A stretch of 64,000 nucleotides of DNA from NCBI GenBank assembly GCA_021325235.1, contig JAJPHN010000009.1, forward strand, positions 62,001 through 126,000. The letters are read 5' to 3'. Positions 9,086-62,522 of the stretch are shown here, piece by piece. Numbering within the stretch: position 1 is the first letter of the stretch; the number at the start of each line of letters is the position of its first letter. A program made the translations under genes and the position numbers. This DNA is from Terriglobia bacterium (GTDB lineage: Bacteria > Acidobacteriota > Terriglobia > Bryobacterales > Bryobacteraceae). The notes below the pieces were generated by a model. That model was not told the DNA's origin, did no database searches, and worked only from the letters and a program-made list of their open reading frames with translations.

Positions 9086-10312
9086 TTACAGCCGAGATGC
9101 TTTCTGCTGCCCGATCAGTTCCTTGTAAAGCTCGATCGTCTGCGCGGCGATAGACGACCAGGCAAATTTTTCTTCGACCCGTCTTCGCCCCGCTTGGCCG
9201 AATCTCCTGCACTTCTCCGGATCAGCCAGCAGTTCCGAAAGCCTGTCGGCCAGATCGCGCGCAAACTGATCCGGCTTCGTCGGAAAAGCCGTTACCGGAT
9301 CCTGCTCGAACGGTACTAGATAGCCCGTCTCACCATTCACTACCACTTCCAGAATCCCGCCCGTCGCGCTGGCCACCACCGGCGCCCCGCAAGCCATCGC
9401 CTCCAGATTGATAATCCCGAACGGCTCGTACACCGAGGGACAGCAGAAAATTCGAGCGTGGCTATAAAGCTCAATCGCCTCCTGTTTCGTCACCATCTTT
9501 TCAATCCAGACAATACGCGGATTGTGCGCGCGCGCTTCTTCCACTTTCTGCCGCATCTCGGCCGCGATCTCCGGCGTGTCGGGCGCTCCCGCGCACAGCA
9601 CCACCTGCATATTCGCCGGCAAGTAGCGAATCGCATCCACCAGATGCGTCACACCCTTCTGCCGCGTGATGCGCCCCACGAACAAAATGTACGGCGCGCT
9701 CTGATCCACTCCGTATTTCTCGAGTGCCCCCGTCGAGCTCTTGCGCTGATACTCGTCCAGATCAATCCCGTTATAGATAACGTGAACCCGCTCGGGAGCA
9801 ATTGCCGGATAGGCGCGCAGAATATCTTCTTTCGTCCCGTTCGAAACCGCAATCACCGCATCCGCATCCAAAATCGCGGTCCGCTCCATCCACGAACTCA
9901 TCGCATACCCGCTGCCCAGTTGCTCCGCTTTCCACGCCCGCAGCGGTTCCAGGCTATGCGTTGTCAGCACAAACGGAACACCATACAGCTTCTTCGCCAG
10001 GAACCCGGCCATCGAAACGTACCAGGTATGCGTATGCACCACATCCACGCCCTGGAGCGCTTTGATCTGCGTCAGATTCAGACTGAACGCTTCGAGCGCC
10101 GTCTTAAATTTCCCCTCCGTACCGTTCGTGATCTCGCTCCAGGGCAGAGCCCCGCGCACATGCAGCGCGCCGTTATCGGAATGCTGCTCACCCCAGCAAT
10201 GCACCTCCACTTCGATCTTCTTGGCGAGCTCGCGGCTCAGGTATTCCACATGCACACCCGCCCCCCCGTAGACGTTCGGCGGATATTCTCTGGTAAACAG
10301 CGCTGCTCGCAA
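9086..10312 (-). CDS. glgM: Alpha-maltose-1-phosphate synthase (GT4 glycosyltransferase, GlgM/actinobacterial GlgA type)
   Basis: A 408-residue GT-B glycosyltransferase of family GT4. It begins RAALFTREYPPNVYGGAGVHVE, matching the actinobacterial GlgA/GlgM group, rather than the GT5 GlgA of enterics. The donor-site motif EPFGIINLEAMACGAPVVAS (about 317-336) is intact. Mycobacterial GlgM makes maltose 1-phosphate from ADP-glucose and glucose 1-phosphate, and its position directly upstream of glgE supports that role. Direct glucan elongation is the alternative. The start is a TTG at 10312, supported by GGAGG nine bases upstream and by homology reaching the first residues. It is the first gene of the operon; the promoter should lie in 10313-10509. 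Confidence 0.85.
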   Translation of the reverse strand: MRAALFTREYPPNVYGGAGVHVEYLSRELAKKIEVEVHCWGEQHSDNGALHVRGALPWSEITNGTEGKFKTALEAFSLNLTQIKALQGVDVVHTHTWYVSMAGFLAKKLYGVPFVLTTHSLEPLRAWKAEQLGSGYAMSSWMERTAILDADAVIAVSNGTKEDILRAYPAIAPERVHVIYNGIDLDEYQRKSSTGALEKYGVDQSAPYILFVGRITRQKGVTHLVDAIRYLPANMQVVLCAGAPDTPEIAAEMRQKVEEARAHNPRIVWIEKMVTKQEAIELYSHARIFCCPSVYEPFGIINLEAMACGAPVVASATGGILEVVVNGETGYLVPFEQDPVTAFPTKPDQFARDLADRLSELLADPEKCRRFGQAGRRRVEEKFAWSSIAAQTIELYKELIGQQKASRL

Positions 10313-14267: not shown

Positions 14268-15590
14268 ATGCTGCGCCGGTTATTACTTGCATCTTTCGTA
14301 GCCGTAGCTTTGGGATCGGTCCCCGCGCTCGCCACCGACCGCGTCATCGTTCGCTTTAATCTCGGTCTTCCCGCTCTTCAGAACGATTGCGCGCTGCTCG
14401 GTTGCACAATCGCGGAAACTCTCGATGGCGCTACCGGTTCGCTCTTTCTGGTTACTGCGCCCGACACGCTGGATCTCAATCAACTGCTCTCCGCCATCCT
14501 CAACCTCACCGGCGTCGTCGATGCCGAAGTCGATCAGATTGCCAACGTCTCTGGCTCTGCAACTTCTATTCCTCCGGCTCTGAACGATAACAAAGCCGTC
14601 CAGTACTACGGCGCAACCGTGATCGATGGCTACGTCCATCAGCCCGCCACCTCCATCGTCCGCCTCTCGAATATGCGGGATGCCTTCCCCAATGCCACTG
14701 GCGCGGGAATCGTGGCGGTCATCGATACCGGTGTCGATCCCAACCATCCCGCACTCAAAGGCGTTCTGCTCCCCGGCTACGATTTCACTCGCAATCGCGC
14801 CGGTGCTGACGAGACCGCCGATGTCACGCTTGGCCAGACCCCTGTTGTGAACGGTGTTCCGCCCACCTGGGTCAGCGGAAGCGGCGATTCCAGCGACCTC
14901 GATCAGTCCACCGCCGCCGTCGTCGATCAGTCCACCGCCGCCGTGGTCGACGGCAATCCGCAGTACGGCGATTTCGGTCATGGCACCATGGTCGCCGGCC
15001 TGGTGCATCTGGTCGCACCCACCGCCCGCATTCTTCCGCTAAAAGCCTTCAAGGCCGATGGAACCGGCTACACCTCCGACATCCTGCGCGCCATCTATTA
15101 CGCCATCGCAAGCAATACCAACGTCATGAACATGAGCTTCAATCTAACGTCGTATTCCACCGAGCTCGCCATCGCCGTCCATACCGCCACGCTCACCGGT
15201 ATCGTTTCGGTCGCCGCAGCCGGCAACAGCGGCGAGAAAACGCTCGTGTATCCGGCTGCGCTTGTAGACGTCATCGGCGTCGCCTCCACCAACAACCACG
15301 ACCAGCTTTCCACCTTCTCTAATTACGGCCCGCAACTGGTCTGGGTCGCCGCACCCGGTGAAGGCGTCATCACCACCTATCCCTTCGGCACCTGGGCCGC
15401 AGCCTGGGGCACCTCGTTCAGCACGCCGCTCACCTCCGGCCTGGCCTCCGTGTTGATGAGCATCAATGCGCCCTGCGGCCCCTACTCCGCTGCCCAGTCG
15501 ATCGCTCACGCCAAGTGGATCAACTACAACCTGGGCCACGGCCGCATCGACCTCTATCAGGCCACCGAAGCCTGGAATTCCGGCTACTAA
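14268..15590 (+). CDS. Secreted subtilisin-like serine protease (S8 family)
   Basis: A 440-residue secreted protease. A signal peptide (LLLASFVAVALGSVPALA) is followed by a propeptide-like region to about 130, then the S8 domain. The catalytic triad is visible: Asp153 in AVIDTGVDPNHP, His238 in FGHGTMVAGLVH, and Ser383 in WGTSFSTPLTSG; the oxyanion Asn is in AAAGNSGE. A 24-bp tandem duplication (14901-14948) encodes two copies of DQSTAAVV just ahead of the catalytic His. There is no PEP-CTERM or other anchor, so it is probably released. It lies 65 bp upstream of a peptide importer operon on the same strand and may supply it with peptides. Confidence 0.92.
   Translation: MLRRLLLASFVAVALGSVPALATDRVIVRFNLGLPALQNDCALLGCTIAETLDGATGSLFLVTAPDTLDLNQLLSAILNLTGVVDAEVDQIANVSGSATSIPPALNDNKAVQYYGATVIDGYVHQPATSIVRLSNMRDAFPNATGAGIVAVIDTGVDPNHPALKGVLLPGYDFTRNRAGADETADVTLGQTPVVNGVPPTWVSGSGDSSDLDQSTAAVVDQSTAAVVDGNPQYGDFGHGTMVAGLVHLVAPTARILPLKAFKADGTGYTSDILRAIYYAIASNTNVMNMSFNLTSYSTELAIAVHTATLTGIVSVAAAGNSGEKTLVYPAALVDVIGVASTNNHDQLSTFSNYGPQLVWVAAPGEGVITTYPFGTWAAAWGTSFSTPLTSGLASVLMSINAPCGPYSAAQSIAHAKWINYNLGHGRIDLYQATEAWNSGY
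14901..14948 (+). repeat. 24-bp tandem duplication within the subtilase gene
   Basis: Two adjacent 24-bp units (14901-14924 and 14925-14948) differ at one base and encode DQSTAAVV twice, at about residues 212-227. The repeat stays in frame and sits in the loop before the catalytic His238. It looks like a recent slippage duplication or a variable surface loop. Confidence 0.85.
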
Positions 15591-15655: not shown

Positions 15656-16399
15656 GTGAAAGGAATGGGCGAGCCGCTGCTTCTTGTTCGCGACCTCTGC
15701 ATTCGCCACCGCTCGAGCGGCCGGCAGATTCTCGATCACGTCAGCTTCGAACTGCAGCGCGGCGAGTGTTTAGGCCTTCTCGGTCCATCCGGCGCAGGCA
15801 AGAGCACTCTCGCACGCGCCCTTCTCCGTCTGCTTCCGCCTGCCCTCTGGGAAGTAACTGGCTCCATCCACCTGAACGGCTTCAATCTCCTGACCGCGCC
15901 CGAAGGCGAGATGCGGCGCTTCCGCGGCGCGCGGATTACGCTCGTCGGCCAGGAACCCGAACTGGCGCTGAATCCCGTACTCACCGTCGGCACACAGATC
16001 GAAGAAGTGCTTCGCGCGCACTTCCCCTTGACAGCAAATCAGCGCCGCCAGCAAGCCGAAGAAGCACTCGCCGCAGTCGGCTTACCTGACCCGAGATTCT
16101 TCCGGGCGCCCATCCAGGAACTGAGCGGCGGCGAGCGCCAGCGCGTCGTCCTCGCTCAGGCTCTGGCCGTCCGCCCCGCCCTGCTCATCCTTGACGAGCC
16201 CACCAGCGCAGTCGATACAATCACCCAAGCGGAAGTGCTCGAATTGTTGAAGAAGCTGCGCGACAGTCTGGAACTCGCCCTCTTGTTCATCACGCACAAC
16301 CCGGCTCTGCTGAGCGGCTTCACCCAACGTGCCCTGCTTCTGCACGACGGCCGCGCGCAACACGTAGAACCGTTCGGTGCCGCTCTCGAAAATTCATGA
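15656..16399 (+). CDS. Peptide/nickel-type ABC transporter ATPase (DppD/OppD-like)
   Basis: A 247-residue ABC ATPase with Walker A GPSGAGKST (Lys49), the signature LSGGERQRVVLAQAL, Walker B LLILDEPTSAVD and the switch His in FITHNPAL. It matches the first of the paired ATPases of Dpp/Opp importers, but is shorter than the usual 320 or so residues because the C-terminal oligopeptide region is missing. The GTG at 15656 is used; an ATG three codons later is possible. It overlaps the next ATPase gene by 4 bp (ATGA), showing tight coupling. It would energise uptake of peptides through the permeases encoded downstream. Confidence 0.9.
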   Translation: MKGMGEPLLLVRDLCIRHRSSGRQILDHVSFELQRGECLGLLGPSGAGKSTLARALLRLLPPALWEVTGSIHLNGFNLLTAPEGEMRRFRGARITLVGQEPELALNPVLTVGTQIEEVLRAHFPLTANQRRQQAEEALAAVGLPDPRFFRAPIQELSGGERQRVVLAQALAVRPALLILDEPTSAVDTITQAEVLELLKKLRDSLELALLFITHNPALLSGFTQRALLLHDGRAQHVEPFGAALENS

Positions 16400-17211
16400 G
16401 CTCGCCCCCTCTGCTCTCGGTCCAGGGCTTGCACAAAAGCTATCGTTCTCCGAAGCGGCCATTCCATGCGCCCGCCGTGCTCCCGGCACTCATAGACATC
16501 ACGCTTCAACTCGCCTCTCATTCCACGCTCGTCCTGGTCGGACGCTCCGGCAGCGGCAAATCCACGCTCGCCCGCTGCATCGCTCGTCTCGAAGCTGCCG
16601 ATAGCGGCGCAGTGTTCTTCGCCGGCCGCAATCTCATGCACCTTCATCCGCGCGAATTGAAGCCCATTCGCCGCGAGCTTCAGATTGTCTTTCAGCACTC
16701 CGCCACCGCCATCAACCCGCTCTTCACCGCTCTCGAGGCCGTCGCCGAGCCGCTCGACGTGCAGCAGATCGGACATCGTCGCGAGCGCCGCGAGCGAGCT
16801 CTCGAGGCGATCGAAACAGTCGGGCTGCCGCGCGCCTGGGCCCATCGCTCGTCACTCGAATTCAGCGGCGGCGAACGCCAGCGCCTTGCCCTGGCCCGCG
16901 CTCTCATCCTCGAACCTAGACTGCTTATCCTCGACGAAGCGCTCTCCGGGCTCGATCGCGTCACCCAGAACCGCATCTCCGATCTTCTGCACGCCTTACA
17001 GCAGCAGCGCTCGCTCGCCTATCTCTTCATCACGCACGATCTGCAGCTCGCTTCCAGAGTTGGTCGCGAACTGGCCGTCATGGAACACGGTCGCATTGTC
17101 GAAAGCGGCCCCGTAGCTGCCATCCTCGCTCAGCCTCAATCCGATGCCGCGGCCGCGCTGGTACGCGCCATCCCGCAACTCCCGGGCACCTCACCTTCTC
17201 TTACCGCCTGA
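16396..17211 (+). CDS. Peptide-type ABC transporter ATPase (DppF/OppF-like)
   Basis: A 271-residue ABC ATPase, partner of the preceding one. Walker A is GRSGSGKST, the Q-loop is IVFQHSATAINP (the position typical of Opp/Dpp ATPases), the signature is FSGGERQRLALARAL and Walker B is LLILDEALSGLD. It overlaps the upstream ATPase by 4 bp and its stop directly abuts the ATG of the first permease gene. A heterodimer of the two ATPases is the normal arrangement in this family. Confidence 0.9.
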   Translation: MSSPPLLSVQGLHKSYRSPKRPFHAPAVLPALIDITLQLASHSTLVLVGRSGSGKSTLARCIARLEAADSGAVFFAGRNLMHLHPRELKPIRRELQIVFQHSATAINPLFTALEAVAEPLDVQQIGHRRERRERALEAIETVGLPRAWAHRSSLEFSGGERQRLALARALILEPRLLILDEALSGLDRVTQNRISDLLHALQQQRSLAYLFITHDLQLASRVGRELAVMEHGRIVESGPVAAILAQPQSDAAAALVRAIPQLPGTSPSLTA

Positions 17212-18168
17212 ATGCCCTTCCTTCTACGCCGCCTCCTGCGCAGCCTTGCTCTTCTGATCGGAGTCTCCTTCCTCTCTTTCCTGCTGCTCGATCTCGCTCC
17301 CGGCGATTACTTCGACACCATGCTTCTCAATCCGCAGATATCGCCTGCCACCGTCGCCGCCATCCGCTCGCAGTACGGTTTGAATCGTCCGCTGCCCCAG
17401 GAATACTGGTCCTGGATTCGCTCCATCGGTCGCGGCGACTGGGGTTATTCCCTCGCCTACAACCTTCCCGCCGCTCCTCTCATCTGGCAGCGCGCGCGCT
17501 ACACGCTTCTGCTCTCCGGCACCGCTACCGCACTAGCCTGGATCGCCGCGCTCGCGCTCGGCATCTGGTCCTCCGCGCGTCCCCATAGCTGGATCGCCGC
17601 ATTGGTGCGCACGCTCGAAGCTCTGCTCATGGCAATTCCCGAACTTGTCCTCGCGCTCTCGCTGCTGCTCATCGCAGTCTGGTCCGGAATCGCTCCGGCC
17701 GCCGGCGCAAGCTCTTCCATCTCCGCTCTGCAGCCGCGCTCTCTACTCGATCTGGCCCGGCATCTTCTCCTGCCGTGCCTCTCTCTGGCACTCGGCCTCC
17801 TCCCCTTGCTCCTGCTTCACGTGCGCTCGTCTATGCGCCAGGCGCTCGATTCGCCATTTGTGAATGCCGCCCGCGCCTATGGAATCCGTCCCGCACGGCT
17901 TCTCTTCCGCCACGCGCTTCCCGTCGCCGCCAATCCCCTCATCTCCCTCTTCGGACTGAGCATCGGCCTGCTCATGAGCTCGTCCCTCGTCACCGAAACC
18001 GTCTTCAGCTGGCCCGGTATTGGTTCGCTCATGGTCACCGCCATCCTCGATCGCGACTTCTTCGTCGTCGTCGACTGCACTCTGCTCGCCGCCATCTTTC
18101 TTCTGGCCGGCAACTTCCTCGCCGACCTGCTTCTCTTCCTGCAGGATCCGCGCGTTCGAGCGAGCTGA
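17212..18168 (+). CDS. Peptide-type ABC transporter permease (DppB/OppB-like)
   Basis: A 318-residue inner-membrane permease. It begins MPFLLRRLLRSLALLIGVSF, the usual DppB-type start with a first membrane helix, followed by the periplasmic loop (LNRPLPQEYWSWI, GDWGYSLAYN). The cytoplasmic EAA-type loop that contacts the ATPase reads FVNAARAYGIRPARLLFRHALP (split here: FVNAARAYGIRP, then ARLLFRHALP). The end has VTETVFSWPGIGSLM. There are six predicted membrane helices. It is separated by one base from the second permease gene. Confidence 0.9.
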   Translation: MPFLLRRLLRSLALLIGVSFLSFLLLDLAPGDYFDTMLLNPQISPATVAAIRSQYGLNRPLPQEYWSWIRSIGRGDWGYSLAYNLPAAPLIWQRARYTLLLSGTATALAWIAALALGIWSSARPHSWIAALVRTLEALLMAIPELVLALSLLLIAVWSGIAPAAGASSSISALQPRSLLDLARHLLLPCLSLALGLLPLLLLHVRSSMRQALDSPFVNAARAYGIRPARLLFRHALPVAANPLISLFGLSIGLLMSSSLVTETVFSWPGIGSLMVTAILDRDFFVVVDCTLLAAIFLLAGNFLADLLLFLQDPRVRAS

Positions 18169-18169
18169 C

Positions 18170-19159
18170 GTGTTGAGCAAAGCTCTGCTGGCCGTTCTTG
18201 CCGCGCTGCATATCGCAGTTCTCTTTGCCGGATTCTTCGCGCCCTACGATTCCCATCAGCAATACCGCGAGTTCTCCTACGCTCCGCCCACTCCCGTTCA
18301 CTGGATCGACAGCGGCGGCCGCCTGCATCTGCGCCCTTTCGTCTACCGGCTCGTTCCCAAACCGGAATTCGCCGGCTATGAAGAAGACCGCACTCGCCTC
18401 TTCCCGCTTTGCTTCTTCTGCAGAACTTCAGGCGGCGACAGCCTCCATCTCTTCGAAGTCAGCGGGCCCGCGCATCTCTTTCTTGCCGGCACCGACGCCT
18501 ATGGCCGCGACGTTCTTTCACGCCTGCTCTTCGGAGGCCGCATTTCACTGGCCTCCGGTCTGCTCGGCGCCTTCATCGCCGTTGCGCTCGGGACCGCTAT
18601 CGGCGCCATCGCCGGCTACTACGGCAAGTGGCTCGACGAATCCGCCATGGCTCTGGCTGAAATTTTTCTGTCGGTCCCCTGGCTCTATCTCTTGTTAGTC
18701 GTTCGCGCACTGCTTCCGCCGCACATCGAGTCCGGCAGCATCTTCGTGCTGCTGGTCGCCGTGCTGGGCGTGGTCGGCTGGGCTCGCCCGGCGCGCCTGG
18801 TACGCGGTCTCGTTCTCAGCCTCAAGCGCCGCGTCTACGTCACCGCCGCCCGCGGCTTCGGCGCCTCCGGTTTCTACCTGCTCCGTCGCCACATCCTGCC
18901 CGGCGCAGGCCCGGTCATCGCTACTCAGCTCGCCTGGTATGTTCCGCAGTTCATGCTCGCCGAGGTCACGCTTTCTTTCTTCGGACTCGGCGTAAGCGAA
19001 CCCGCGCCCAGCTGGGGCAACATGCTCGCCGCTCTACAGCGCGCTTACGTCCTCCAGTCCTGCTGGTGGTTGTTCGCGCCCGCCATCGTCATCGTTCTCG
19101 TCTTCGCCGGCTATCGCCAGATCTTCGCCCGTTACGCCCCCGGCGCACCCGAACTTTGA
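18170..19159 (+). CDS. Peptide-type ABC transporter permease (DppC/OppC-like)
   Basis: A 329-residue permease. The GTG at 18170, one base after the upstream stop, was chosen because the protein then opens with the expected membrane helix (KALLAVLAALHIAVLFAGFFAP). The diagnostic DppC features are GTDAYGRDVLSRLLFGGR (about 111-128) and the EAA loop YVTAARGFGASGFYLLRRHI, followed by ATQLAWYVPQFMLAEVTLSF and PAPSWGNML. The segment between helix 1 and GTDAYGRD is unusually long (about 80 residues) and contains two Cys (FCFFC-like region), forming a periplasmic insert. It pairs with the preceding permease. Confidence 0.88.
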   Translation: MLSKALLAVLAALHIAVLFAGFFAPYDSHQQYREFSYAPPTPVHWIDSGGRLHLRPFVYRLVPKPEFAGYEEDRTRLFPLCFFCRTSGGDSLHLFEVSGPAHLFLAGTDAYGRDVLSRLLFGGRISLASGLLGAFIAVALGTAIGAIAGYYGKWLDESAMALAEIFLSVPWLYLLLVVRALLPPHIESGSIFVLLVAVLGVVGWARPARLVRGLVLSLKRRVYVTAARGFGASGFYLLRRHILPGAGPVIATQLAWYVPQFMLAEVTLSFFGLGVSEPAPSWGNMLAALQRAYVLQSCWWLFAPAIVIVLVFAGYRQIFARYAPGAPEL

Positions 19160-19239: not shown

Positions 19240-21006
19240 ATGAGGTTCTTAGCTGTAAGCGCTAATGCATTTCCTCTCGTTTTGGCCCTGCTGCCCTTTC
19301 TATCCCGGACAGAAAATGGCGCTCGCTTCCAGACCTCTTCCGAAACCCATCCCCCACCGGCGCAATTCGTAGCCGAGCCCGGCATTCCCGGCGGAACACT
19401 CGTTATTTCCTCGCATTCCGAACCAAAAACCCTGAATCCGCTGCTGGCAGTCGATTCGAGTTCCCGCAAAATCACCGCTCTGCTCAACGCGGATTTGATC
19501 CACATTAACAGCGCCACGCAGCAAACCGAACCCGCACTCGCCGAATCCTGGTCCGTCTCCGACTCAGGCCGCCGCTATCTCTTACACCTCCGCCATGGCC
19601 TTCGTTTCTCCGACGGCTCGCCCTTCGATGCCGACGATGTCGTCTTTTCCTTCCGCGCCTATCTCGACGATCGCGTCCAGTCTCCCCAGCGCGATCTGTT
19701 AATCACCGCGGGGAAACCGATTCGCGTCGAAAAGATTGATCCATACACTGTCGCGTTCTCCCTGGAACGTCCCTACGCGGCCGCCGAACGACTCTTCGAC
19801 GGTCTCGCCATGCTGCCGCGCCACCTGCTCGAGAATCAGCTGCAGCAAGGCACCCTCCGCTCCGCCTGGAATCTCGCCACCGCGCCGCAGGCCATCGCCG
19901 GTCTGGGGCCGTTTCGCGTCGCTTCCTATGCGCCGGGCCAGCGCATCGTCCTCGAACGCAATCCCTACTATTGGAAATCCGACAGCCGCGGCACACGGCT
20001 TCCCTATCTCGACCGCATCTCGGTTGTCTTCGCCGCCAACACCGACGCCGAGGTCATGCGCTTCGAACAGGGCGAAACGGACCTGATCGAAAATCTCGAC
20101 GCGCAGAACTTTGCCCTGCTCGCGCGGCGTCAGAATGCCGGGCACTACCGCGCCGTCGACATCGGCCCCGGCCTCGAATACGACTTTCTCTTCTTCAATC
20201 AGAACGCCTTCCCTTCTGAACCCTTCCCCCATCTCTTCGAACGCCAGAAGTGGTTCCGCGAAACGCAATTCCGCCGGGCCGTATCCGCCGCCATCGATCG
20301 CGACGCGCTGATCCGCCTCGCCTACTTCGGACGAGCCGATGCACTCGCCACCCTTGTCACTCCCGGCAATCGCCGCTGGACCGATCCAGCCATTCCCCGC
20401 CCCGTGCGCTCGCTCGAGAACGCTCGCCGCCTGCTTTCCAGCTGCGGCTTTTCCTGGGCCAGCGATCACTCGCTCCTCGATCCCGCCCGCAACCCGGTTC
20501 GCTTCGCCATCACCGTGAATGCCGGCAAACCGCAACAGGTCGAGATGGCCACGCTCATTCAGCAGGACCTAAAAGACATCGGCATCCAGGTCGATCTCGA
20601 CCAGATCGAGTTCCACACCTTCATGGATCGCATCTTCTCGAATTACCGCTACGAAGCGGCCATAATCGCGCTCGCCGACGGCGACGCCGATCCGAATTCC
20701 GAATTCAATGTCTTAAGCTCCACCGGCACGGCCCACCTCTGGCAGCTCAAATCCGCCGGACCCATCCCGAAATGGCAGGCCGAGATCGATCAGTTGCTCG
20801 ACAAACAGCTAATCACACAAAATTACGAGGAAAGAAAGGCCATATATAACCGTATCCAGCAAGTGGTATGGGAAAATATGCCGATGATTTGTCTGGTGAG
20901 CCCGCATATTCTGGCCGCCGCTAAGAACAGCGTTGGCAATTTTCATCCCGCCATTTTGGGCGATCCGGCACTCTGGAATGCCGACCGGCTTTTCCTCCGG
21001 CCCTGA
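19240..21006 (+). CDS. Peptide-binding protein of the ABC importer (SBP_bac_5, DppA/OppA-like)
   Basis: A 588-residue extracytoplasmic binding protein. An N-terminal hydrophobic stretch (SANAFPLVLALLPFLS) acts as signal; no lipobox Cys is seen. The family motifs are GTLVISSHSEPKTLNPLL, LAESWSVSDSGRRYLLHLRHGLRFSDGSPFDADDVVF (read in two pieces), GLGPFRVASYAPGQ, VLERNPYYW and the FRRAVSAAIDRDALI helix. It begins 80 bp after the permease gene, the largest gap in the cluster, so it may have its own start of transcription. The sigma factor follows 16 bp later. The ligand is probably a peptide, inferred from the family and the neighbouring subtilase. Confidence 0.9.
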   Translation: MRFLAVSANAFPLVLALLPFLSRTENGARFQTSSETHPPPAQFVAEPGIPGGTLVISSHSEPKTLNPLLAVDSSSRKITALLNADLIHINSATQQTEPALAESWSVSDSGRRYLLHLRHGLRFSDGSPFDADDVVFSFRAYLDDRVQSPQRDLLITAGKPIRVEKIDPYTVAFSLERPYAAAERLFDGLAMLPRHLLENQLQQGTLRSAWNLATAPQAIAGLGPFRVASYAPGQRIVLERNPYYWKSDSRGTRLPYLDRISVVFAANTDAEVMRFEQGETDLIENLDAQNFALLARRQNAGHYRAVDIGPGLEYDFLFFNQNAFPSEPFPHLFERQKWFRETQFRRAVSAAIDRDALIRLAYFGRADALATLVTPGNRRWTDPAIPRPVRSLENARRLLSSCGFSWASDHSLLDPARNPVRFAITVNAGKPQQVEMATLIQQDLKDIGIQVDLDQIEFHTFMDRIFSNYRYEAAIIALADGDADPNSEFNVLSSTGTAHLWQLKSAGPIPKWQAEIDQLLDKQLITQNYEERKAIYNRIQQVVWENMPMICLVSPHILAAAKNSVGNFHPAILGDPALWNADRLFLRP

Positions 21007-21022
21007 TGGCGACGAACCCCGC

Positions 21023-21604
21023 ATGAGCGCAGGCGCAAAACCGTTCTTGGCACACAAAGGTTACAGAAGCGACGACATCCTGGTCCGCGAGTGCCTCCTC
21101 GGCACCGAATCGGCCTGGACGGAGCTGGTCGACAAATACCGCAATCTGATCTACTCCATCCCCATACGCTCCGGTTTCTCACCCGACGACGCCAGCGAAA
21201 TCTTCCAGTCCGTCTGCCTCATGCTGCTTCGAGACCTGCGCGCCCTCCGCGAGCCGCAGGCGCTCCCGGCCTGGCTCATCCGCCTCACCACCCGTAAATG
21301 CGCCAGCTTCCGGAAGGACCGGCTCGTACACAACGAGATCCAGCCCGATTCCGCCCTCGAGACCCGCGGCCTTCCCGAAGCCGTTATGGAACAGGTCGAG
21401 CGCGAGCAGATGTTTCGCGAGGCGCTGGCTGAAGGCACTCCCGAATGCGCCCGCCTCATTCGTCTGCTTTTCCTCGAACATCCGCCCCTCAGCTACGATC
21501 AGGCCGCCGCCGCGCTCGGCCTCGCCCGCGGTTCCATCGGAGCCACCCGCATGCGCTGCCTCGAAAAGCTCCGCCGTACCCTCGAAAAGAAAGGTTTTCG
21601 CTAA
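21023..21604 (+). CDS. ECF-type RNA polymerase sigma factor, paired with TPR-CHAT gene
   Basis: A 193-residue sigma-70 family protein. Region 2 is recognisable in LVDKYRNLIYSIPIRSGFSPDDASEIFQSV (read in parts, about 30-60), and region 4 in LSYDQAAAALGLARGSIGATRMRCLEKLRR with its helix-turn-helix. The start at 21023 (MSAGAKPF) lies 17 bp after the binding-protein stop; a longer frame into that gene exists but is implausible. No anti-sigma gene is adjacent. The next gene, 9 bp downstream with AAGGAGG between them, encodes a caspase-like TPR-CHAT protein, so the two are almost certainly translated from one message. Confidence 0.88.
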   Translation: MSAGAKPFLAHKGYRSDDILVRECLLGTESAWTELVDKYRNLIYSIPIRSGFSPDDASEIFQSVCLMLLRDLRALREPQALPAWLIRLTTRKCASFRKDRLVHNEIQPDSALETRGLPEAVMEQVEREQMFREALAEGTPECARLIRLLFLEHPPLSYDQAAAALGLARGSIGATRMRCLEKLRRTLEKKGFR

Positions 21605-21613
21605 AAAGGAGGA

Positions 21614-24478
21614 ATGGAATCGCTTACGGAAGAGCTCTGTGCGGAATTGGGCCGGCTCCCGCAGCGGACCAGCCGTACTTCCTTCCTGGCGCAAAACCGC
21701 GATTTGCTCAACGCTTCCCTCGTACGCGAACTCGGCGAAGCGGTGCGTTCCGCCGTGCGCAGCGACGTCCGTAAGGCTTTCGAGCTGGCGCAAGGCGCCC
21801 TCGCCATTGCACGTGAGCTGCGCGATATCGAAGCTCTTGCCACTGGCCTGCGCGCCAAAGCGAATGCGCTCTGGTTCCAGGGTGATTGCCGCGCCGCCGT
21901 TCGCCTCTTTCGCCGCGCCGCGCAGCTTTTTGAACGCTGCGGTAACGAGAGTGAACTCGCCCGCACCCTGAGCAGTTCCATCCAGTCGCTTGCTCTCTTA
22001 GGCGAATACCGCCAGGCCGTCGATGCCGCCGAACGGGCCCGCGAAATCTTCCTCCGCCTCGGCGACAGCTGGCGTTTGGCCCGCGTCGACATCAACCTGG
22101 CCAACGTCTACCACCGCCAGAACCACTACCGCGAAGCTCTGTCCGCCTACGAGCGCGCCTACCAGCAGCTCCTTCCCTACCGCGACATGGAAGCCATCGG
22201 CGTCGCGCTGCATAATATGGCCGTCTGCCTCATCGCGCTCGATAGCTTTGAAGAAGCCTTCCCCACCTACCAGCGCGCCCGCGATCTCTTCGCCCGCGAG
22301 GACATGCCGCTGCTGGTCGCCCAAGCCGATTACAACGTCGCTTCCCTGCATTACCTTCGCGGCGACTACACCGCAGCGCTCCAGCTGCTTCGCTCCACTC
22401 GTGAAACCTACAGCAAAAATGGCGACGATTACCATGTCAGCCTCTGCGATCTCGATCAGTCGGAAATCTATCTCGAGCTGAGCCTCGTCGACGAAGCGGC
22501 CGAAATGGCGCGCCGCAGCCTCGATCATTTCGAGAAGCTCGGCATGAACTACGAACAGGCGCGCTCTCTCGTCAACCTCGCCATCGCTCTCCATCTCGCC
22601 GGCGATTCCGCCCAGGCTCTCGCAGTCTTCGGCCGTGCGCGCGAAATCTCCGCCCAGGAAGAAAATCCCGTCCTGCCGCGCATCATCGATCTGTATCGCG
22701 CGCTCGTGCTTCTCGAACTCGGCGATGCGGCCAGTGCTCTCGAAATCTCCACCTCTACCGCAGAGTTCTTCGCTTCCATCCCCATACCCAGCAAGTACGT
22801 GCTGAGCAAACTCATCCTCACACGCGCCTGCCTGCGGCTCGGCCGCATCGAAGACGCCGAAACACACTGCCAGGAAGCTCTGCGCAGCGCTGAGCATCTC
22901 GATGCGCCCATTCTCTTCTATCAGGCCCACTTCCTGCGCGGCCAGATTCTGGAAGCCGAGACCAAAAACGAAGAGGCGTACGCCGCTTATCAGCAGGCGC
23001 GATCCGCCGTCGAAAGTTTACGCAGCAGCTTACAGCGCCAGGAGCTCAAGATCGGCTTCATGCGCAATCGCCTCGACGTGTACAGCCGTCTCACCGTTCT
23101 CTGCCTCGCGCGCGGCGGCGAAGATCACGCCTTCGAAGAAGCCCTGTCCTATATCGAGGCCGCGAAATCCCGTACCCTGCGCGACGTCATCCTTGCCGGC
23201 ACCCAGATCGAAGATAAATCCGCCCAGACGTCCGCTACCGAGGCTCGTGTCCGCGAGCTTCGGCGTGAGCTCAACTGGTATTACCACCGCATTGAGCGCG
23301 AGCAGCTCTCGCGCGAGCGCACCGCCATCTGGCAGGAAGACGCACTCAACCGCGAAGCTCATGCCCGCGAGCATGAACTCTCCCGTATCCTGCTCGAAAT
23401 GCCCGAAGCCCTGAGCGTCGGCGCGGCCCTGCGCGATTCCACTGCGGCCGGATTAAACCAGATCCGCGAAAAGCTGGGCGACGATGCCTCGCTGCTCGAA
23501 TATTTCGCGCTCGACGGCCAGATTCATGTCGCCGTGATCACCGCCGGCAGCCTGCAAGTCATTCCGCTCGCCCAGCTGCCAGGCGTCACTCAGTCCGTGC
23601 GCATGCTGCAGTTTCAGCTCGCCAAATTCCAGCTCGATCCGGCCTACACCACCCGCTTCCACGACCAGCTGCTTCGCTCCACCCAGCACCATCTCCGCAA
23701 TCTGTACGACGCTCTGGTCGCGCCGGTTGCACATCTCCTCAACGGGCGCGATCTGGTGATCGTTCCCTTCGGCGCGCTCCACTCGCTCCCATTCCACGCT
23801 CTATTCGACGGCGAGCAGTACCTCATCGATCGTTTCGATATCTGTTATGAGCCGAGCGCCAGCATCTTCCACCACTGCCATCGCGAAATGCCGCCCGTGA
23901 ACGGACCGTCGCTCGTCTTGGGCATCGAAGACGAGAAGCTGCGATTCATCAAAGAAGAAGTTGATGCAGTCGCCGGAGTAGTGCCGGATGCGCGTGTGCT
24001 CTACGGCGATCGCGCCACCGAATCCGAACTCCGGCGATACGGCCGCAGCAGCCGCATCATTCACATCGCAAGCCACGGCATCTTCCGGCAGGACAACCCG
24101 CTCTTCTCCTCCATTCGCCTGTCGGGTTCGTACCTCACGCTCTACGACCTCTACCACATGGACTTGCCGGTCGACTTACTCACCTTAAGCGGCTGTGTCA
24201 CCGGACTGAATGTAGTCGCCGAAGGAGACGAACTGCTGGGCCTCACGCGCGGCTTGCTCTATGCCGGCGCGCGCTCTCTGCTGTTGTCACTCTGGGAAGT
24301 CGACGATCGCAGCACCTCCGAGTTCATGCATGAGTTCTACTGCTCCATGGCCAAAGGCAGCCGCAAATCCGACGCCCTGCGCTCCGCCATGCTCGCTCTC
24401 CGTCAGCACTACCCGCACCCCTACTACTGGGCGCCTTTCAAACTCACCGGCCGCGCACTTACCGCCGCGGAGTCCTGA
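21614..24478 (+). CDS. TPR-CHAT protein (caspase-like protease)
   Basis: A 954-residue cytoplasmic protein. Residues from about 50 to 480 form a long array of TPR helical repeats (for example RALEAYERAYQQLL-like and YQRARDLFAREDMPLL units), followed by a linker coiled region (RVRELRRELNWYYHRIEREQ, about 545-565) and a C-terminal CHAT domain. The caspase dyad is visible: His821 in HIASHGIF and Cys861 in LTLSGCVTG, 40 residues apart; LLSLWEVDD follows. CHAT proteases are clan CD cysteine peptidases; TPR-CHAT (Csx29) in type III-E CRISPR controls a sigma factor by cleavage. Here the gene is coupled to its own sigma factor with no CRISPR locus in view. The substrate is unknown. Confidence 0.92.
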   Translation: MESLTEELCAELGRLPQRTSRTSFLAQNRDLLNASLVRELGEAVRSAVRSDVRKAFELAQGALAIARELRDIEALATGLRAKANALWFQGDCRAAVRLFRRAAQLFERCGNESELARTLSSSIQSLALLGEYRQAVDAAERAREIFLRLGDSWRLARVDINLANVYHRQNHYREALSAYERAYQQLLPYRDMEAIGVALHNMAVCLIALDSFEEAFPTYQRARDLFAREDMPLLVAQADYNVASLHYLRGDYTAALQLLRSTRETYSKNGDDYHVSLCDLDQSEIYLELSLVDEAAEMARRSLDHFEKLGMNYEQARSLVNLAIALHLAGDSAQALAVFGRAREISAQEENPVLPRIIDLYRALVLLELGDAASALEISTSTAEFFASIPIPSKYVLSKLILTRACLRLGRIEDAETHCQEALRSAEHLDAPILFYQAHFLRGQILEAETKNEEAYAAYQQARSAVESLRSSLQRQELKIGFMRNRLDVYSRLTVLCLARGGEDHAFEEALSYIEAAKSRTLRDVILAGTQIEDKSAQTSATEARVRELRRELNWYYHRIEREQLSRERTAIWQEDALNREAHAREHELSRILLEMPEALSVGAALRDSTAAGLNQIREKLGDDASLLEYFALDGQIHVAVITAGSLQVIPLAQLPGVTQSVRMLQFQLAKFQLDPAYTTRFHDQLLRSTQHHLRNLYDALVAPVAHLLNGRDLVIVPFGALHSLPFHALFDGEQYLIDRFDICYEPSASIFHHCHREMPPVNGPSLVLGIEDEKLRFIKEEVDAVAGVVPDARVLYGDRATESELRRYGRSSRIIHIASHGIFRQDNPLFSSIRLSGSYLTLYDLYHMDLPVDLLTLSGCVTGLNVVAEGDELLGLTRGLLYAGARSLLLSLWEVDDRSTSEFMHEFYCSMAKGSRKSDALRSAMLALRQHYPHPYYWAPFKLTGRALTAAES

Positions 24479-58695: not shown

Positions 58696-59961
58696 TTGGC
58701 ATCCGAACCCAGAGCCATCGCCGCACGCACCGCCTCCGCATCCCGAGAGGCGCGCCGCATCGCGCAACTCGCTGAAAGCCCGGCTCTCTTCGAAGCCCAA
58801 CGCTGGTTCGCGCGCGAACGCGGCTGGATCAACGAAACGCACCTCCAGCTCTGCCGCATTCCCGCCCCTACGTTTTTCGAAGGCCAGCGCGCCGAGTGGT
58901 TTCGCGCGCAGCTCGAGCAGTTTGGCTGGCGCGCCCGCCTCGATCGCGCCGGCAATGTTCTGGCCGATCAGCCCGAATCCGAAACCCCGCTCCTCATCGT
59001 CTCCGCGCACCTCGATACCGTCTTCGCGCCCAATCGCCCGGACGACATTTCTATAGCGAGCGATGGCCGCCTGCTCGGCCCCGGAGTATCCGATAACGGC
59101 GCCGGTCTCTCGGCTCTCCTCGCGCTCGCCCGCCTGCTGGTCGAAAATCCCGATCTCCAATCTCTCGCCTCTCGTGTCCTTCTGGTGGCCAATGTCGGCG
59201 AAGAAGGCGAGGGCAATCTGAGCGGTATGCGCTATCTTTGCCTGCACGGCCTTCCGCGCCAGAGCCGCCCGATCGGCGCATTCCTCGTGCTCGACGGTCC
59301 CTCCACCGAGCACATCACTGCCCAGGCTCTCGCCAGCCGCCGTTTCGAAATCGCCTTTTCCGGTCCCGGCGGCCACAGCTGGAACGACTATGGCGTCCCC
59401 AATCCCGTGCACGCGCTCGGCGAGCTCATCAGCCACTTCGCCCAGGGCGCGGACGCGCGCCTCGCAGCCGAACGCAAAACTCGCTCTTCGTACAACTTCG
59501 GCATCGTCGAAGGCGGCTCCAGCATCAACGCCATTCCCTCCGCCGCACGCGCCAAACTCGATCTGCGCTCGGAGAACTCGGCCGTGCTCGATGAACTCGC
59601 TGCGCTTCTGCGAACCTCCGTCGAGCGAAGCCTGGAACGCGAGCAGCGTATCTCCCGCGCCGGAAAACTTTCGGCCGCTATCAAGGAACTCGGCTCACGC
59701 CCCGGCGGCAAGCTCGACGACAAATCGCCCCTGCTCGAAGCAGTTCAGGCTGTTGATAACTATCTCAACATTCGCTCCCGCATCGACTGCGCTTCCACCG
59801 ACGCGAACGTACCGCTCTCCATGGGCTTACCCGCCATCTCCATCGGTGCCGGCGGACAGGGCGGAGGCGCGCACACCTCCGGCGAATGGTATCAGCCCGA
59901 AGGCCGCGAAACAGGACTCCGCCGCATTCTCCTCTTACTCGCTCTTCTCGCCGAAGCATGA
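58696..59961 (+). CDS. M20 family metallopeptidase
   Basis: A 421-residue zinc peptidase. Metal-site motifs are present: VSAHLDTVF (His, Asp), GVSDNGAGLS (bridging Asp), VGEEGEGNLSG (catalytic and ligand Glu), and the terminal His in GGAHTSGEWYQPEGRE. The dimerisation domain holds FSGPGGHSWNDYG. Members cleave di- or tripeptides or deacylate amino acids. The TTG at 58696 is used because no ATG or GTG lies near the start of homology; a nearby upstream region is occupied by the ccmE promoter side. It overlaps the EamA gene by 4 bp. Confidence 0.88.
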   Translation: MASEPRAIAARTASASREARRIAQLAESPALFEAQRWFARERGWINETHLQLCRIPAPTFFEGQRAEWFRAQLEQFGWRARLDRAGNVLADQPESETPLLIVSAHLDTVFAPNRPDDISIASDGRLLGPGVSDNGAGLSALLALARLLVENPDLQSLASRVLLVANVGEEGEGNLSGMRYLCLHGLPRQSRPIGAFLVLDGPSTEHITAQALASRRFEIAFSGPGGHSWNDYGVPNPVHALGELISHFAQGADARLAAERKTRSSYNFGIVEGGSSINAIPSAARAKLDLRSENSAVLDELAALLRTSVERSLEREQRISRAGKLSAAIKELGSRPGGKLDDKSPLLEAVQAVDNYLNIRSRIDCASTDANVPLSMGLPAISIGAGGQGGGAHTSGEWYQPEGRETGLRRILLLLALLAEA

Positions 59962-60869
59962 GCCGCGCCAACGCTCCGCCGCGCTGGCAGGCGGAACTCG
60001 CGCTTGCCTTCGTCGCGCTCGTCTGGGGCTCCACCTTCGTCGTTGTCAAGAGCGCGCTGACCGATATTTCGACCGTCTATTTCCTCGCGCTGCGCTTCTC
60101 GCTGGCCGCCTTCTGCATGCTGCTGATGTTCTGGCCGTCCTTTCGAAGCAGCAACGGCGCCGCCATTCGCAAAGGTCTCGCAGGCGGCGGCATCGCCGGC
60201 ATCTTCCTCTGGCTCGGCTATGTGCTTCAGACCTTCGGCCTCAAGTACACCACCGCCGGCAAGTCGGGCTTCATTACCGGCTTCTACATCGCGCTCGTGC
60301 CGCTGCTCGGCGCCGCCCTCTACCGGCGCTGGCCGCCTGCGCGCGAGCTTCTGGGAATCGCGGTCGCCACTGCCGGCATCGCCATTCTCACCCTGCCCCG
60401 AGGCAATCGATTCGTCATGAACCGCGGCGATCTGCTGACCATCGGCTGCGCTATCGCCTTCGCCATCCATCTTCTCGTCCTCGGCTACTACTCGCAGCGC
60501 TGTCTGGTTTCAGCTGTTGCACTCGGCCAGATCGCCTGCTCGGCCGTGCTCTCGACCATCTCTCTCGCCTGGGAACGTCCTTCGGCCATCTGGAACCGCA
60601 ACGTGCTCTTCGCTCTTACCCTCACGGCGATCTTCGCCACCGCCCTCGCGTTCGCCATTCAGACCTGGGGCCAGAAATACACCTCGCCCTCTCGCACCGC
60701 GCTCATCTTCGCTCTGGAGCCCGTCTTTGCTTTAGCCACGGCAGTCTCGGTCGGCCGCGAAGCGCTGACTGCTGCCGCGCTGGCCGGAGGCGCGCTGGTT
60801 CTCGCCGGAATTCTGCTGGTAGAACTCAAACCGAAACCGCGCACGCAACTCGAGCAGGTGGAAAATTGA
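59958..60869 (+). CDS. EamA/DMT superfamily transporter
   Basis: A 303-residue inner-membrane protein with ten predicted helices in two EamA repeats (LALAFVALVWGSTFVVVKSA in the first; LFALTLTAIFATALAFAIQ and TALIFALEPVFALATAVSV in the second). Family members export amino acids or other metabolites. It begins at ATG 59958, overlapping the M20 stop (ATGA), so the peptidase and exporter are coupled. The ligand is unknown. The 3' end is 7 bp from the convergent anti-sigma gene. Confidence 0.9.
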   Translation: MSRANAPPRWQAELALAFVALVWGSTFVVVKSALTDISTVYFLALRFSLAAFCMLLMFWPSFRSSNGAAIRKGLAGGGIAGIFLWLGYVLQTFGLKYTTAGKSGFITGFYIALVPLLGAALYRRWPPARELLGIAVATAGIAILTLPRGNRFVMNRGDLLTIGCAIAFAIHLLVLGYYSQRCLVSAVALGQIACSAVLSTISLAWERPSAIWNRNVLFALTLTAIFATALAFAIQTWGQKYTSPSRTALIFALEPVFALATAVSVGREALTAAALAGGALVLAGILLVELKPKPRTQLEQVEN

Positions 60870-60876
60870 GAGCGCC

Positions 60877-61989
60877 CTATGCCGCACCGCGCAACTTTCT
60901 CCACAGCAACCGGCCCGGCCAGATCGTGATCGCCCCAATTACCAGCAGCACCGGCCCGCACGTGAGCAGAAGTACCGCGCATCCCTCCACCAGATCGACC
61001 AGCGTCTGCCAGCCATCCACCGCCGCGTTCCGGAGCCGCGTCGAAATGGCCGCATGATCCGTTCCCGCCGGCTTGCGATACCGCTCAGTCATCGTCACCC
61101 GCACGCTCGCCAGCGCCACCCGATTCGCCAGCGCCTTCTGCTCCGCTTCTGTTGTCTCGATCTCGCCGCGCACCCGCGCAATCTGCTCCTCCACTTCCAG
61201 CACATCCGAAAGCTTGCCCGTCCGCTGCTGCAGAATTGCAGTGAGCCGTTTTTCTGTCTCGCGCAGATTTGCCAGCCGCGCATCGGTATCCACCGATTGC
61301 CGCGTTACATCTTCGCCCCGCTGCGATTCCGTATCCACGTGTCCCAGTGTTCTCAGATCGCGGTACAGCGCATCCAGTTCCGCCGCCGGTACCTTCAGCG
61401 TCGCCGTAAGCGACTTCGCCTCCTCCGCCGATCGGTTCATCGCGAGCTCTGAAACAAATCCGCCGCGCGCCTTCACCATCTGCTCCATACGCCCCCGAGC
61501 GTCGTCGAAGCGTTCCACGGTAATCGCCAGGTTCGCCTCCCGTGCGATCCTGACCGCCATAGCCGGCATATCCTTCTGAATCTGCCCCGCCCGATCCATC
61601 AGCATCACGTCAGGCGCGGGCTCTGTCGTCGTCGCTTGCCGCTGCTGCAGGGAATCTACGCTGGGCGCCGAGTAGTCAACAATTGCCGGCCGGTGCCTTA
61701 TCCCAAGCCCGATACCAAAAACTCCGATCACCCCTGCCGCAACTGCCGCCCACTCCCAACGAAACCGCCGCTTCTGCGGCACTGCGGGCGCGGTCCAATC
61801 CGCCCGAACACCCGGCGCTTTCCACCGCTTCATTGCGCCCGACAGATGCTTCAGATCCTCCACCACCCCGCGACACTCGTCACACCCGGCCAGATGTTCT
61901 TCCACACGCTCCGCCTCATTCAAGCTCAGCTCGCCATCGAGATACGCCATCATCTCCTCTTCCGCAAACGGATGCGTTTTCAGCTGCAT
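60877..61989 (-). CDS. Zinc-finger anti-sigma factor fused to DUF4349
   Basis: A 370-residue membrane protein. The N-terminal ZAS-type zinc finger (EEHLAGCDECRGVV, with His and CxxC) binds the sigma factor. A membrane helix follows (WAAVAAGVIGVFGIGLGI, about 80-97), then a DUF4349 domain with coiled-coil (VERFDDARGRMEQMVKARGG, then LNLRETEKRLTAIL-like heptads) and a C-terminal pair of membrane segments. The ATG overlaps the sigma gene by 10 bp. The extracytoplasmic DUF4349 is the likely sensor. Confidence 0.9.
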   Translation of the reverse strand: MQLKTHPFAEEEMMAYLDGELSLNEAERVEEHLAGCDECRGVVEDLKHLSGAMKRWKAPGVRADWTAPAVPQKRRFRWEWAAVAAGVIGVFGIGLGIRHRPAIVDYSAPSVDSLQQRQATTTEPAPDVMLMDRAGQIQKDMPAMAVRIAREANLAITVERFDDARGRMEQMVKARGGFVSELAMNRSAEEAKSLTATLKVPAAELDALYRDLRTLGHVDTESQRGEDVTRQSVDTDARLANLRETEKRLTAILQQRTGKLSDVLEVEEQIARVRGEIETTEAEQKALANRVALASVRVTMTERYRKPAGTDHAAISTRLRNAAVDGWQTLVDLVEGCAVLLLTCGPVLLVIGAITIWPGRLLWRKLRGAA

Positions 61990-62522
61990 GTTCCGTCCTC
62001 TCGCCCGAGCGCCGCTTCCACCGGCTCCAGATACCGCTTCAATTGCATGCGTGCCCGAAATAGCCGCGACCGCACCGTGTTTACCGGTATATCGAGCAGC
62101 ACCGCCATCTCCGCATAACTCAGCTGTTCATATTCGCGCAGCATCACCATCTCGCGCTCGCTCTCCTGCAAAAGCGACAGCGCCTTTCGCACCGCCAGAC
62201 TCGAGTCGTAGTCGCTCTCCGCGCCAGGCTCCGCCGACAGCCAATCCGTCTTACGAAACGCCTGCTTCCGCCGCTCCGCCATTGCCATCTTCAATGCAAT
62301 TCCGTATAAATACCCGCGCACCGGCGCTCTCGGGTCATATCGATCTCTCGCCTTCATCACTGCCACAAAGACTTCCTGCGCCAGATCCTCGGCCCGCTCG
62401 CGATCGAACACACGCCGGTAGAAAAATCCGAACAGCGGCTCGCGATATCGCGCGAACAGCTCCGCGAACGCCTCCCCCGATCCTCTCCGATATCGCCGCA
62501 ACAGCTCTTCGTCGCTGATCAT
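61980..62522 (-). CDS. ECF RNA polymerase sigma factor (RpoE-like)
   Basis: A 180-residue sigma factor. Region 2 is FAELFARYREPLFGFFYRRV, then RERAEDLAQEVFVAVM; region 4 is MLREYEQLSYAEMAVLLDIP, then VNTVRSRLFRARMQLKRYL. The downstream overlapping gene is its anti-sigma. The upstream gap (62523-62680) would hold the promoter, possibly self-recognised. Confidence 0.93.
   Translation of the reverse strand: MISDEELLRRYRRGSGEAFAELFARYREPLFGFFYRRVFDRERAEDLAQEVFVAVMKARDRYDPRAPVRGYLYGIALKMAMAERRKQAFRKTDWLSAEPGAESDYDSSLAVRKALSLLQESEREMVMLREYEQLSYAEMAVLLDIPVNTVRSRLFRARMQLKRYLEPVEAALGREDGTCS

Follow-up and report, generated by a model that had tools for sequence, protein, structure and literature searches.

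An ECF-type sigma factor gene linked to a TPR-CHAT caspase-like protease and an anti-sigma-like protein in several bacterial phyla: a candidate CRISPR-independent proteolytic switch

The window analysed here, a 64,000-nucleotide stretch of a Terriglobia bacterium genome (Acidobacteriota, Bryobacteraceae; GCA_021325235.1, contig JAJPHN010000009.1, positions 62,001 to 126,000), carries on its forward strand a gene for an extracytoplasmic function (ECF)-type sigma factor of 193 residues (21023–21604), followed by a gene for a 954-residue caspase-like protease with TPR repeats and a CHAT domain (TPR-CHAT; 21614–24478). The sigma factor matched Pfam Sigma70_r2 and scored 58.0 bits against TIGR02937 (sigma70-ECF), over the cut-off of 42.9, which places it among ECF sigma factors. 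The larger protein matched Pfam TPR_12 and CHAT, with a CHAT domain at residues 693–946 (23690–24451; 6e-63, 213 bits) and a helical TPR array at residues ~34–471 (21713–23026), delimited by the helix pattern of the structural model and the TPR_12 matches. Its predicted catalytic dyad is formed by His821, in an HIASHG motif (codon at 24074–24076), and Cys861, in an SGC motif (codon at 24194–24196). A previous sequence-only reading of this DNA had reported a sigma gene followed, after 9 bp, by the gene for a TPR-CHAT protein of 954 residues whose His821/Cys861 dyad is intact, and this description was confirmed by the open reading frames (ORFs), Pfam and TIGR02937. The same reading had proposed that the two genes are translationally coupled through AAAGGAGGA. 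This element does lie in the 9-bp gap (21605–21613, forward strand), with its last G one nucleotide from the ATG, a spacing shorter than in a usual Shine-Dalgarno arrangement, and because of this spacing coupling is only possible.

The sigma factor belongs to a discrete family, as 14 other matches among 60 relatives had E values of 1e-32 or lower, and the next match, at 7e-15, marked the point where other ECF sigma factors start. A TPR-CHAT gene was found beside the sigma gene in 11 of 12 loci of this family (±1.5 kb, the window's own locus included), the twelfth (L003) being a contig end, and was absent from all 18 other ECF loci that this search had returned (L013–L030); the pairing is more than chance. 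When longer stretches were considered, TPR-CHAT was present at 12 of 14 loci of the family, and the two misses were the contig end (L032), whose genome carries CHAT together with the anti-sigma-like gene described below on another contig (L210), and L044, where that anti-sigma-like gene is present and CHAT absent. Three cysteines of the sigma family are nearly invariant over 136 rows (Cys24, 97%; Cys142, 99%; Cys179, 100%), which is unusual for ECF sigma factors. In a crude 19-residue hydropathy scan, a value of 1.6 was exceeded by 14 of 59 TPR-CHAT proteins. The window genome has three other CHAT genes, and no model of the sigma, anti-sigma-like or subtilase families matched in the stretches read around them. 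Another TPR-CHAT gene of this genome (L201:6464-9292) adjoins an ORF labelled by eye as S41-like; sigma or anti-sigma genes of these families were not found in the 18 kb read there.

In relatives, a gene for a protein of about 205 residues, hereafter the anti-sigma-like protein (AS), adjoins TPR-CHAT or sigma, and the recurrent module consists of sigma, TPR-CHAT, AS and a secreted S8 subtilase, often with an Opp-type ATP-binding cassette (ABC) transporter. To count this linkage, loci were pooled and duplicates removed, yielding 142 distinct sigma genes, 103 of them with at least 6 kb downstream, around which partners were scored within 9 kb on either strand. CHAT was detected in 94 of these 103 loci, AS in 91, S8 in 85 and all three in 79; 87 loci had both CHAT and AS, 11 had one of the two, and 5 lacked both. 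Left out of the count were L038 and L148, which have other module genes and no sigma row, and L204, in which sigma, AS, TPR-CHAT and S8 are all present. Conservation of the sigma/TPR-CHAT neighbourhood, on which the sequence-only reading depended, was thereby borne out in genomes carrying this sigma family. Among loci read over 6 kb on both sides, Opp-type genes were found nearby in 22 of 25 with the order sigma-CHAT-AS and in 4 of 37 with the order sigma-AS-CHAT, and 15 of the 77 had neither of these dominant orders.

Within the phylum, the sigma family was detected in 45 and AS in 30 of 396 sampled genomes, counts that are possibly low as only 7–8 first-look candidates were scored per genome. 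All 30 AS genomes were among the 45 with sigma (Fisher 3e-34, uncorrected for phylogeny). Similarly, the 17 genomes of the genus included 7 with sigma and 6 with AS, all 6 among the 7, and in both phylum and genus the distribution of the sigma family is patchy. When 84,980 species genomes were scanned, at least 574 loci matched, and the 80 best of these spanned Acidobacteria, Chloroflexi (with Anaerolineae), Phycisphaerae, a Fimbriimonadaceae metagenome-assembled genome (MAG), in whose locus AS was not found, and two actinobacterial MAGs. Locus L200 is from a Geodermatophilaceae MAG, in whose family the sigma was present in 26 of 57 genomes; among 12 loci fetched from this family, the higher-scoring of 29 matches, CHAT and an AS homologue were both present in 9 and both absent in 3. 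The module is found across several phyla of soil and water bacteria. Three loci (L153, L086 and L154) appear to carry a further module set in tandem or an additional AS, which suggests that the switch has been duplicated, and one genome (G191; L073, L080, L090, L111) has four sigma and seven AS family matches.

Sequence profiles relate AS to known anti-sigma factors. The AS profile (A1) matched, in the PDB, RsiW (5wuq, 6e-5), 3hug_B (3e-4), which we take to be RslA, the N-domain of DdvA (8rlz, 0.01) and ChrR (0.011). The NCBIfam antisigma model matched 23 of 60 members (E ≤0.01), the displayed member falling below the model cut-off, and Pfam detected zf-HC2 in 9 of 60 (E ≤0.01) and CarboxypepD_reg in 7 of 60. 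A Class I zinc-binding anti-sigma (ZAS) motif (Hx3Cx2C-like) occurs in part of the family, the window genome's own copy included, and the zinc cysteines are kept in just 43/60 and 42/60. Only 1 of 60 members exceeded 1.6 in a 19-residue hydropathy scan; since no clear membrane helix is apparent, AS is probably soluble. An AlphaFold2 model of AS (mean pLDDT 90.7, pTM 0.65) comprises five helices (residues 6–81), a strand (86–90), a turn and loop (91–106, pLDDT ~82) and a beta domain (107–198). Because its fold search returned weak matches, mostly beta-sandwiches with E values of at least 0.0036 among the 50 shown, the anti-sigma reading rests on the sequence profiles, which make AS a probable anti-sigma homologue carrying a carboxypeptidase-regulatory-like beta domain.

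The sequence-only reading had stated that no anti-sigma gene accompanies the pair. This holds for AS of this family in the 64-kb window, where a six-frame profile scan did not find it, and fails for the genome, as a full-length homologue that has both the zinc ligands and, in its linker, the Arg discussed below (R102) is encoded on another contig (G000:C41:121056-121664, E 5.7e-58). As a feature of the system it fails as well, given the presence of AS in 91 of the 103 distinct sigma loci, and AS is the most evident candidate for a substrate. Two matches in the window scan did pass the inclusion threshold, one at 60880–62127 (E 7e-6), restricted to the zinc finger, and another, marginal, at 59760–60866 (E 0.007). 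The former corresponds to an ORF of the reverse strand with a zinc-finger anti-sigma-like N-terminus, matched over the ZAS part alone, and is probably a separate anti-sigma. No other module gene was found within the 19 kb read around the C41 copy, which is 45% identical to the AS proteins of two same-genus operons. The absence of AS beside the window pair looks like a local rearrangement and not the nature of the system.

Two features are invariant in the protease and its proposed partner. The His/Cys dyad was conserved in 62 of 62 aligned proteins in one set (67 rows of 64 ORFs, the remaining rows not spanning these columns) and in 59 of 59, from several phyla, in a second alignment (A3: the window protein and 58 of 60 rows, with the partial L142 and L167 omitted), so that the CHAT dyad, whose degeneration in orthologues would have spoken against the sequence-only reading, is not degenerate. 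In AS, a linker Arg (R101 of L121, R102 of the window genome's copy) was invariant in two sets of 60 out of 60 that share 7 rows; one of these alignments (A4) holds 60 of 65 rows, omitting L157 (38 aa), L169 and L181 (over-long frames), the second L136 row and L167. According to the AS model, this Arg sits in the loop that precedes the beta domain. Its surroundings, positions 92–98, 100 and 102–107, are mostly variable (entropy 1.9 to 3.6 bits), with a Gly two positions before it in 53/60, S, G or T after it in 52/60, and A-G-V-R/S as the commonest context. Ten of ten actinobacterial AS copies lack the zinc half and keep both the Arg and the beta domain, and the constant core of AS, as judged from these alignments, is therefore the Arg loop plus the beta domain and not the zinc finger.

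The AlphaFold2 model of TPR-CHAT (mean pLDDT 92.4, pTM 0.90) found its best fold match in Csx29 of type III-E CRISPR (8eey, E 1.2e-18, TMq 0.43), followed by human separase, an enzyme of eukaryotes that cuts cohesin; separase likewise combines a helical array with a caspase-like domain. It also matched the anti-sigma factor DdvA of Myxococcus xanthus (8rot, 6e-13). With a CHAT-only profile, Csx29 chains were matched at 1e-12, DdvA at 1.3e-4 (8rot, residues 834–974) and separase weakly (0.05). DdvA, the anti-sigma factor of the DdvS/DdvA pair, is thus matched by both proteins of the module, weakly by the zinc domain of AS (8rlz, 0.01) and by CHAT (8rot), a hint at a link between anti-sigma and CHAT functions, although DdvA is a single transmembrane protein and here there are two separate proteins. 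Csx29 was also the best NCBIfam match of the window TPR-CHAT (NF041237, 57.3 bits), well below the model's cut-off of 300.

Csx29 is known to cut the sigma inhibitor Csx30 in the CASP-sigma circuit of type III-E CRISPR (PMC10028731). The system described here shares with type III-E a TPR-CHAT protein with a His/Cys dyad, an ECF-like sigma factor and a probable sigma inhibitor. It differs in that the inhibitor is a zinc-finger and beta-domain protein and that an RNA-guided trigger was not seen for the window module. No CRISPR array was detected at 10000–36000 of the window in a search for spaced direct repeats of at least 22 nt within 120 nt. No Csx30 chain appeared among the PDB matches of the AS profile or the 50 fold matches shown; the genome itself was not searched with a Csx30 profile. 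Cas1 was found only as pieces on another contig of the window genome (L234, L235; G000:C49:14429-15024), one of them interrupted by an internal stop.

We consider it fairly probable that these genes encode a CRISPR-independent switch in which CHAT cuts AS in its linker and thereby frees the sigma factor. In such a switch, soluble AS, made of a zinc-finger or reduced N-terminus, a linker and a beta domain, would hold the ECF-type sigma factor, and TPR-CHAT would be a ligand-gated caspase-like protease triggered at its TPR array. Once active, its dyad would cut the interdomain loop of AS, most likely beside the invariant Arg, so that the half that binds sigma is separated from the beta domain and sigma is released. 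As the AS gene of the window genome is on another contig, its product would act in trans. Cutting of AS alone may not suffice, because in Csx30 the N-terminal fragment reportedly remains bound to sigma after cleavage (PMC9729208).

A different substrate has been proposed for a group with similar gene neighbours. In the review PMC8999054, the actinobacterial group ECF54, exemplified by a Geodermatophilus, is listed as lacking an anti-sigma factor and as having neighbours with CHAT, subtilase and carboxypeptidase domains, from which proteolysis is proposed. Those three kinds of neighbour are common to the window sigma family (CarboxypepD_reg matching part of the AS proteins), and AS itself, in 91/103 loci and in trans in the window genome, is at odds with the "no anti-sigma" part of that description; the "carboxypeptidase" neighbour of ECF54 is likely the AS homologue, ECF54 having been compared by its description. 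Applied here, the proposal would have CHAT, the subtilase or both degrade sigma itself with no anti-sigma involved, which would agree with the window lacking an anti-sigma in cis. We regard it as quite improbable, given that frequency of AS, and as the linker between sigma regions 2 and 4 (residues 101–125) reaches at most 52% identity at any position over 136 rows; sigma is an unlikely substrate because this linker has no conserved site, whereas AS has its invariant loop Arg. In addition, the Sec-like N-terminus of the subtilase probably places it outside the cytoplasm. For ECF270 and ECF271, exemplified by members of the Acidobacteria and Chloroflexi, the same review lists soluble ZAS anti-sigma factors of unknown mechanism (PMC8999054). 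These groups share phyla and a soluble ZAS partner with the window module, a likeness by description and not by sequence kinship, and the module is probably near ECF54, ECF270 and ECF271.

Several observations weigh against the proposed switch with its cleavage of AS beside the Arg. The Arg could instead serve binding or folding, and Csx30 is reported to be cut after Leu, not Arg (PMC9729208). The same source identifies separase D2151 as the residue recognising the P1 Arg, replaced by K670 in Csx29 (PMC9729208); in the Csx29 alignment this position corresponds, by manual count, to S902 of the window protein and is mostly Ala in the family, so that an Arg-specific pocket of the separase kind is not evident. 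A separase-type Arg pocket at the invariant Asp898 had been considered and was dropped, the published D2151/K670 position falling on Ser902. As for AS, the top PDB match of its profile is the beta domain of an enzyme (4v4c_B, transhydroxylase subunit, C-terminal half, 5e-5), and clear ZAS residues were recognised by pattern in 29 of 60 members, with 16 partial and 15 without. The linkage has exceptions, with CHAT lacking a detected AS in 7/103 loci and AS lacking CHAT in 4/103, and these counts were made with profiles built from part of the counted loci, the AS homologues having been found via profiles that contain the Arg. The window pair itself has no adjoining AS, and the AS gene of its genome is unlinked, on a different contig; as contamination of the assembly is put at 4.77%, that contig may be foreign. 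Finally, no shared promoter motif was found, as spaced-dyad counts in 90 upstream regions were not above those of shuffles.

Some of these points fit a switch in which TPR-CHAT binds AS and does not cut it, liganding of the TPR array bringing about a partner switch with the invariant Arg as a docking residue. The TPR array, a common binding scaffold, makes up most of the protein, no Arg pocket is evident, and partner switching is a known mode of soluble anti-sigma factors (PMC8999054). We nevertheless hold a purely binding role to be unlikely, as the dyad is invariant in 59/59 proteins across several phyla and pure scaffolding would hardly keep it.

Proteolytic release of sigma would also have to be connected to a signal, and here the genes preceding the sigma gene, an Opp-type transporter and a subtilase overlooked by the sequence-only reading, may be relevant. 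All are on the forward strand. The first, a core member of the module, encodes a secreted S8 subtilase of 440 aa (14268–15590; Pfam Peptidase_S8, 2e-35) with Asp/His/Ser motifs and a hydrophobic N-terminus. Across 108 S8 frames, the strict Asp/His/Ser pattern was found in 69, and 34 more failed the strict Ser pattern alone, most of them keeping GTS. The window S8 gene also contains a 24-nt tandem duplication (14894–14941, copies 92% identical) that repeats DQSTAAVV in the protein. It is followed by genes for two Opp/Dpp-type ABC ATPases (15656–16399 and 16396–17211; Pfam ABC_tran), two permeases (17212–18168, Pfam BPD_transp_1, 3.6e-32; and 18020–19159 for the ORF as listed, 9.7e-22, with its real start probably near 18170) and a family 5 solute-binding protein of 588 aa (19240–21006; SBP_bac_5, 4.5e-79), whose gene ends 16 bp before that of sigma. 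Homologues of all five transporter genes are found near sigma in relatives.

Both the subtilase outside the cell and the importer of the Opp type probably act where the signal originates, belong to the regulon of sigma, or do both. As the subtilase recurs and an Opp importer is present in one branch, an imported peptide is a fair guess for the trigger of the protease. Peptide signalling with an Opp importer and a TPR receptor is characteristic of Rap-Phr and other RRNPP systems. An Opp importer, a secreted subtilase and a TPR protein are all present here, and RapF and RapJ were among the TPR profile matches, although TPR similarity is unspecific. A conserved gene for a small peptide was not seen: none of the 25 largest clusters, drawn from 12,817 neighbouring ORFs of at least 30 aa, was a small ORF lying consistently within the module on its strand, and the recurrent small ORFs were mostly antisense, upstream or unflagged pieces of S8. 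Short peptides can escape BLAST, and the clustering covered ORFs of at least 30 aa. The complete chain, in which the subtilase would make peptides outside, the Opp transporter import them, the TPR array read them and CHAT cut AS at the invariant Arg to switch on the sigma regulon, would make the module a widespread CRISPR-free counterpart of Craspase, perhaps its ancestral stock; we put this extended version forward only tentatively, as a speculation.

The subtilase also bears on the last explanation considered, that TPR-CHAT is a defence or death effector under sigma/anti-sigma control, with its substrate elsewhere. CHAT proteases do serve bacterial defence, in type III-E and with gasdermin (PMC9729208), and the PADLOC models for subtilase (1e-11) and IetS (1e-6) matched S8. 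These matches, like those of the transporter ATPases, may reflect general folds; sigma and AS matched nothing in PADLOC, TPR-CHAT matched just a TPR model, weakly (0.0028), and an importer with the same gene set recurs across phyla. A defence role of this kind therefore appears very improbable.

Among the literature found, CHAT and sigma are joined in the type III-E papers and in the review PMC8999054. What the present analysis adds is that these separate descriptions may concern a single system, and that the neighbour labelled "carboxypeptidase", which has an invariant loop Arg alongside the protease's invariant dyad, is a probable anti-sigma homologue. An ECF group classified as having no anti-sigma factor would then possess one, under the carboxypeptidase label. 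The module would offer a CRISPR-free setting for a protease/inhibitor/sigma logic that we otherwise found worked out for Csx29 only, and, with a concrete substrate and residue named, its mechanism becomes testable with three purified proteins. If the peptide-gated version were true, it would constitute a peptide-gated pathway from a caspase to transcription in bacteria.

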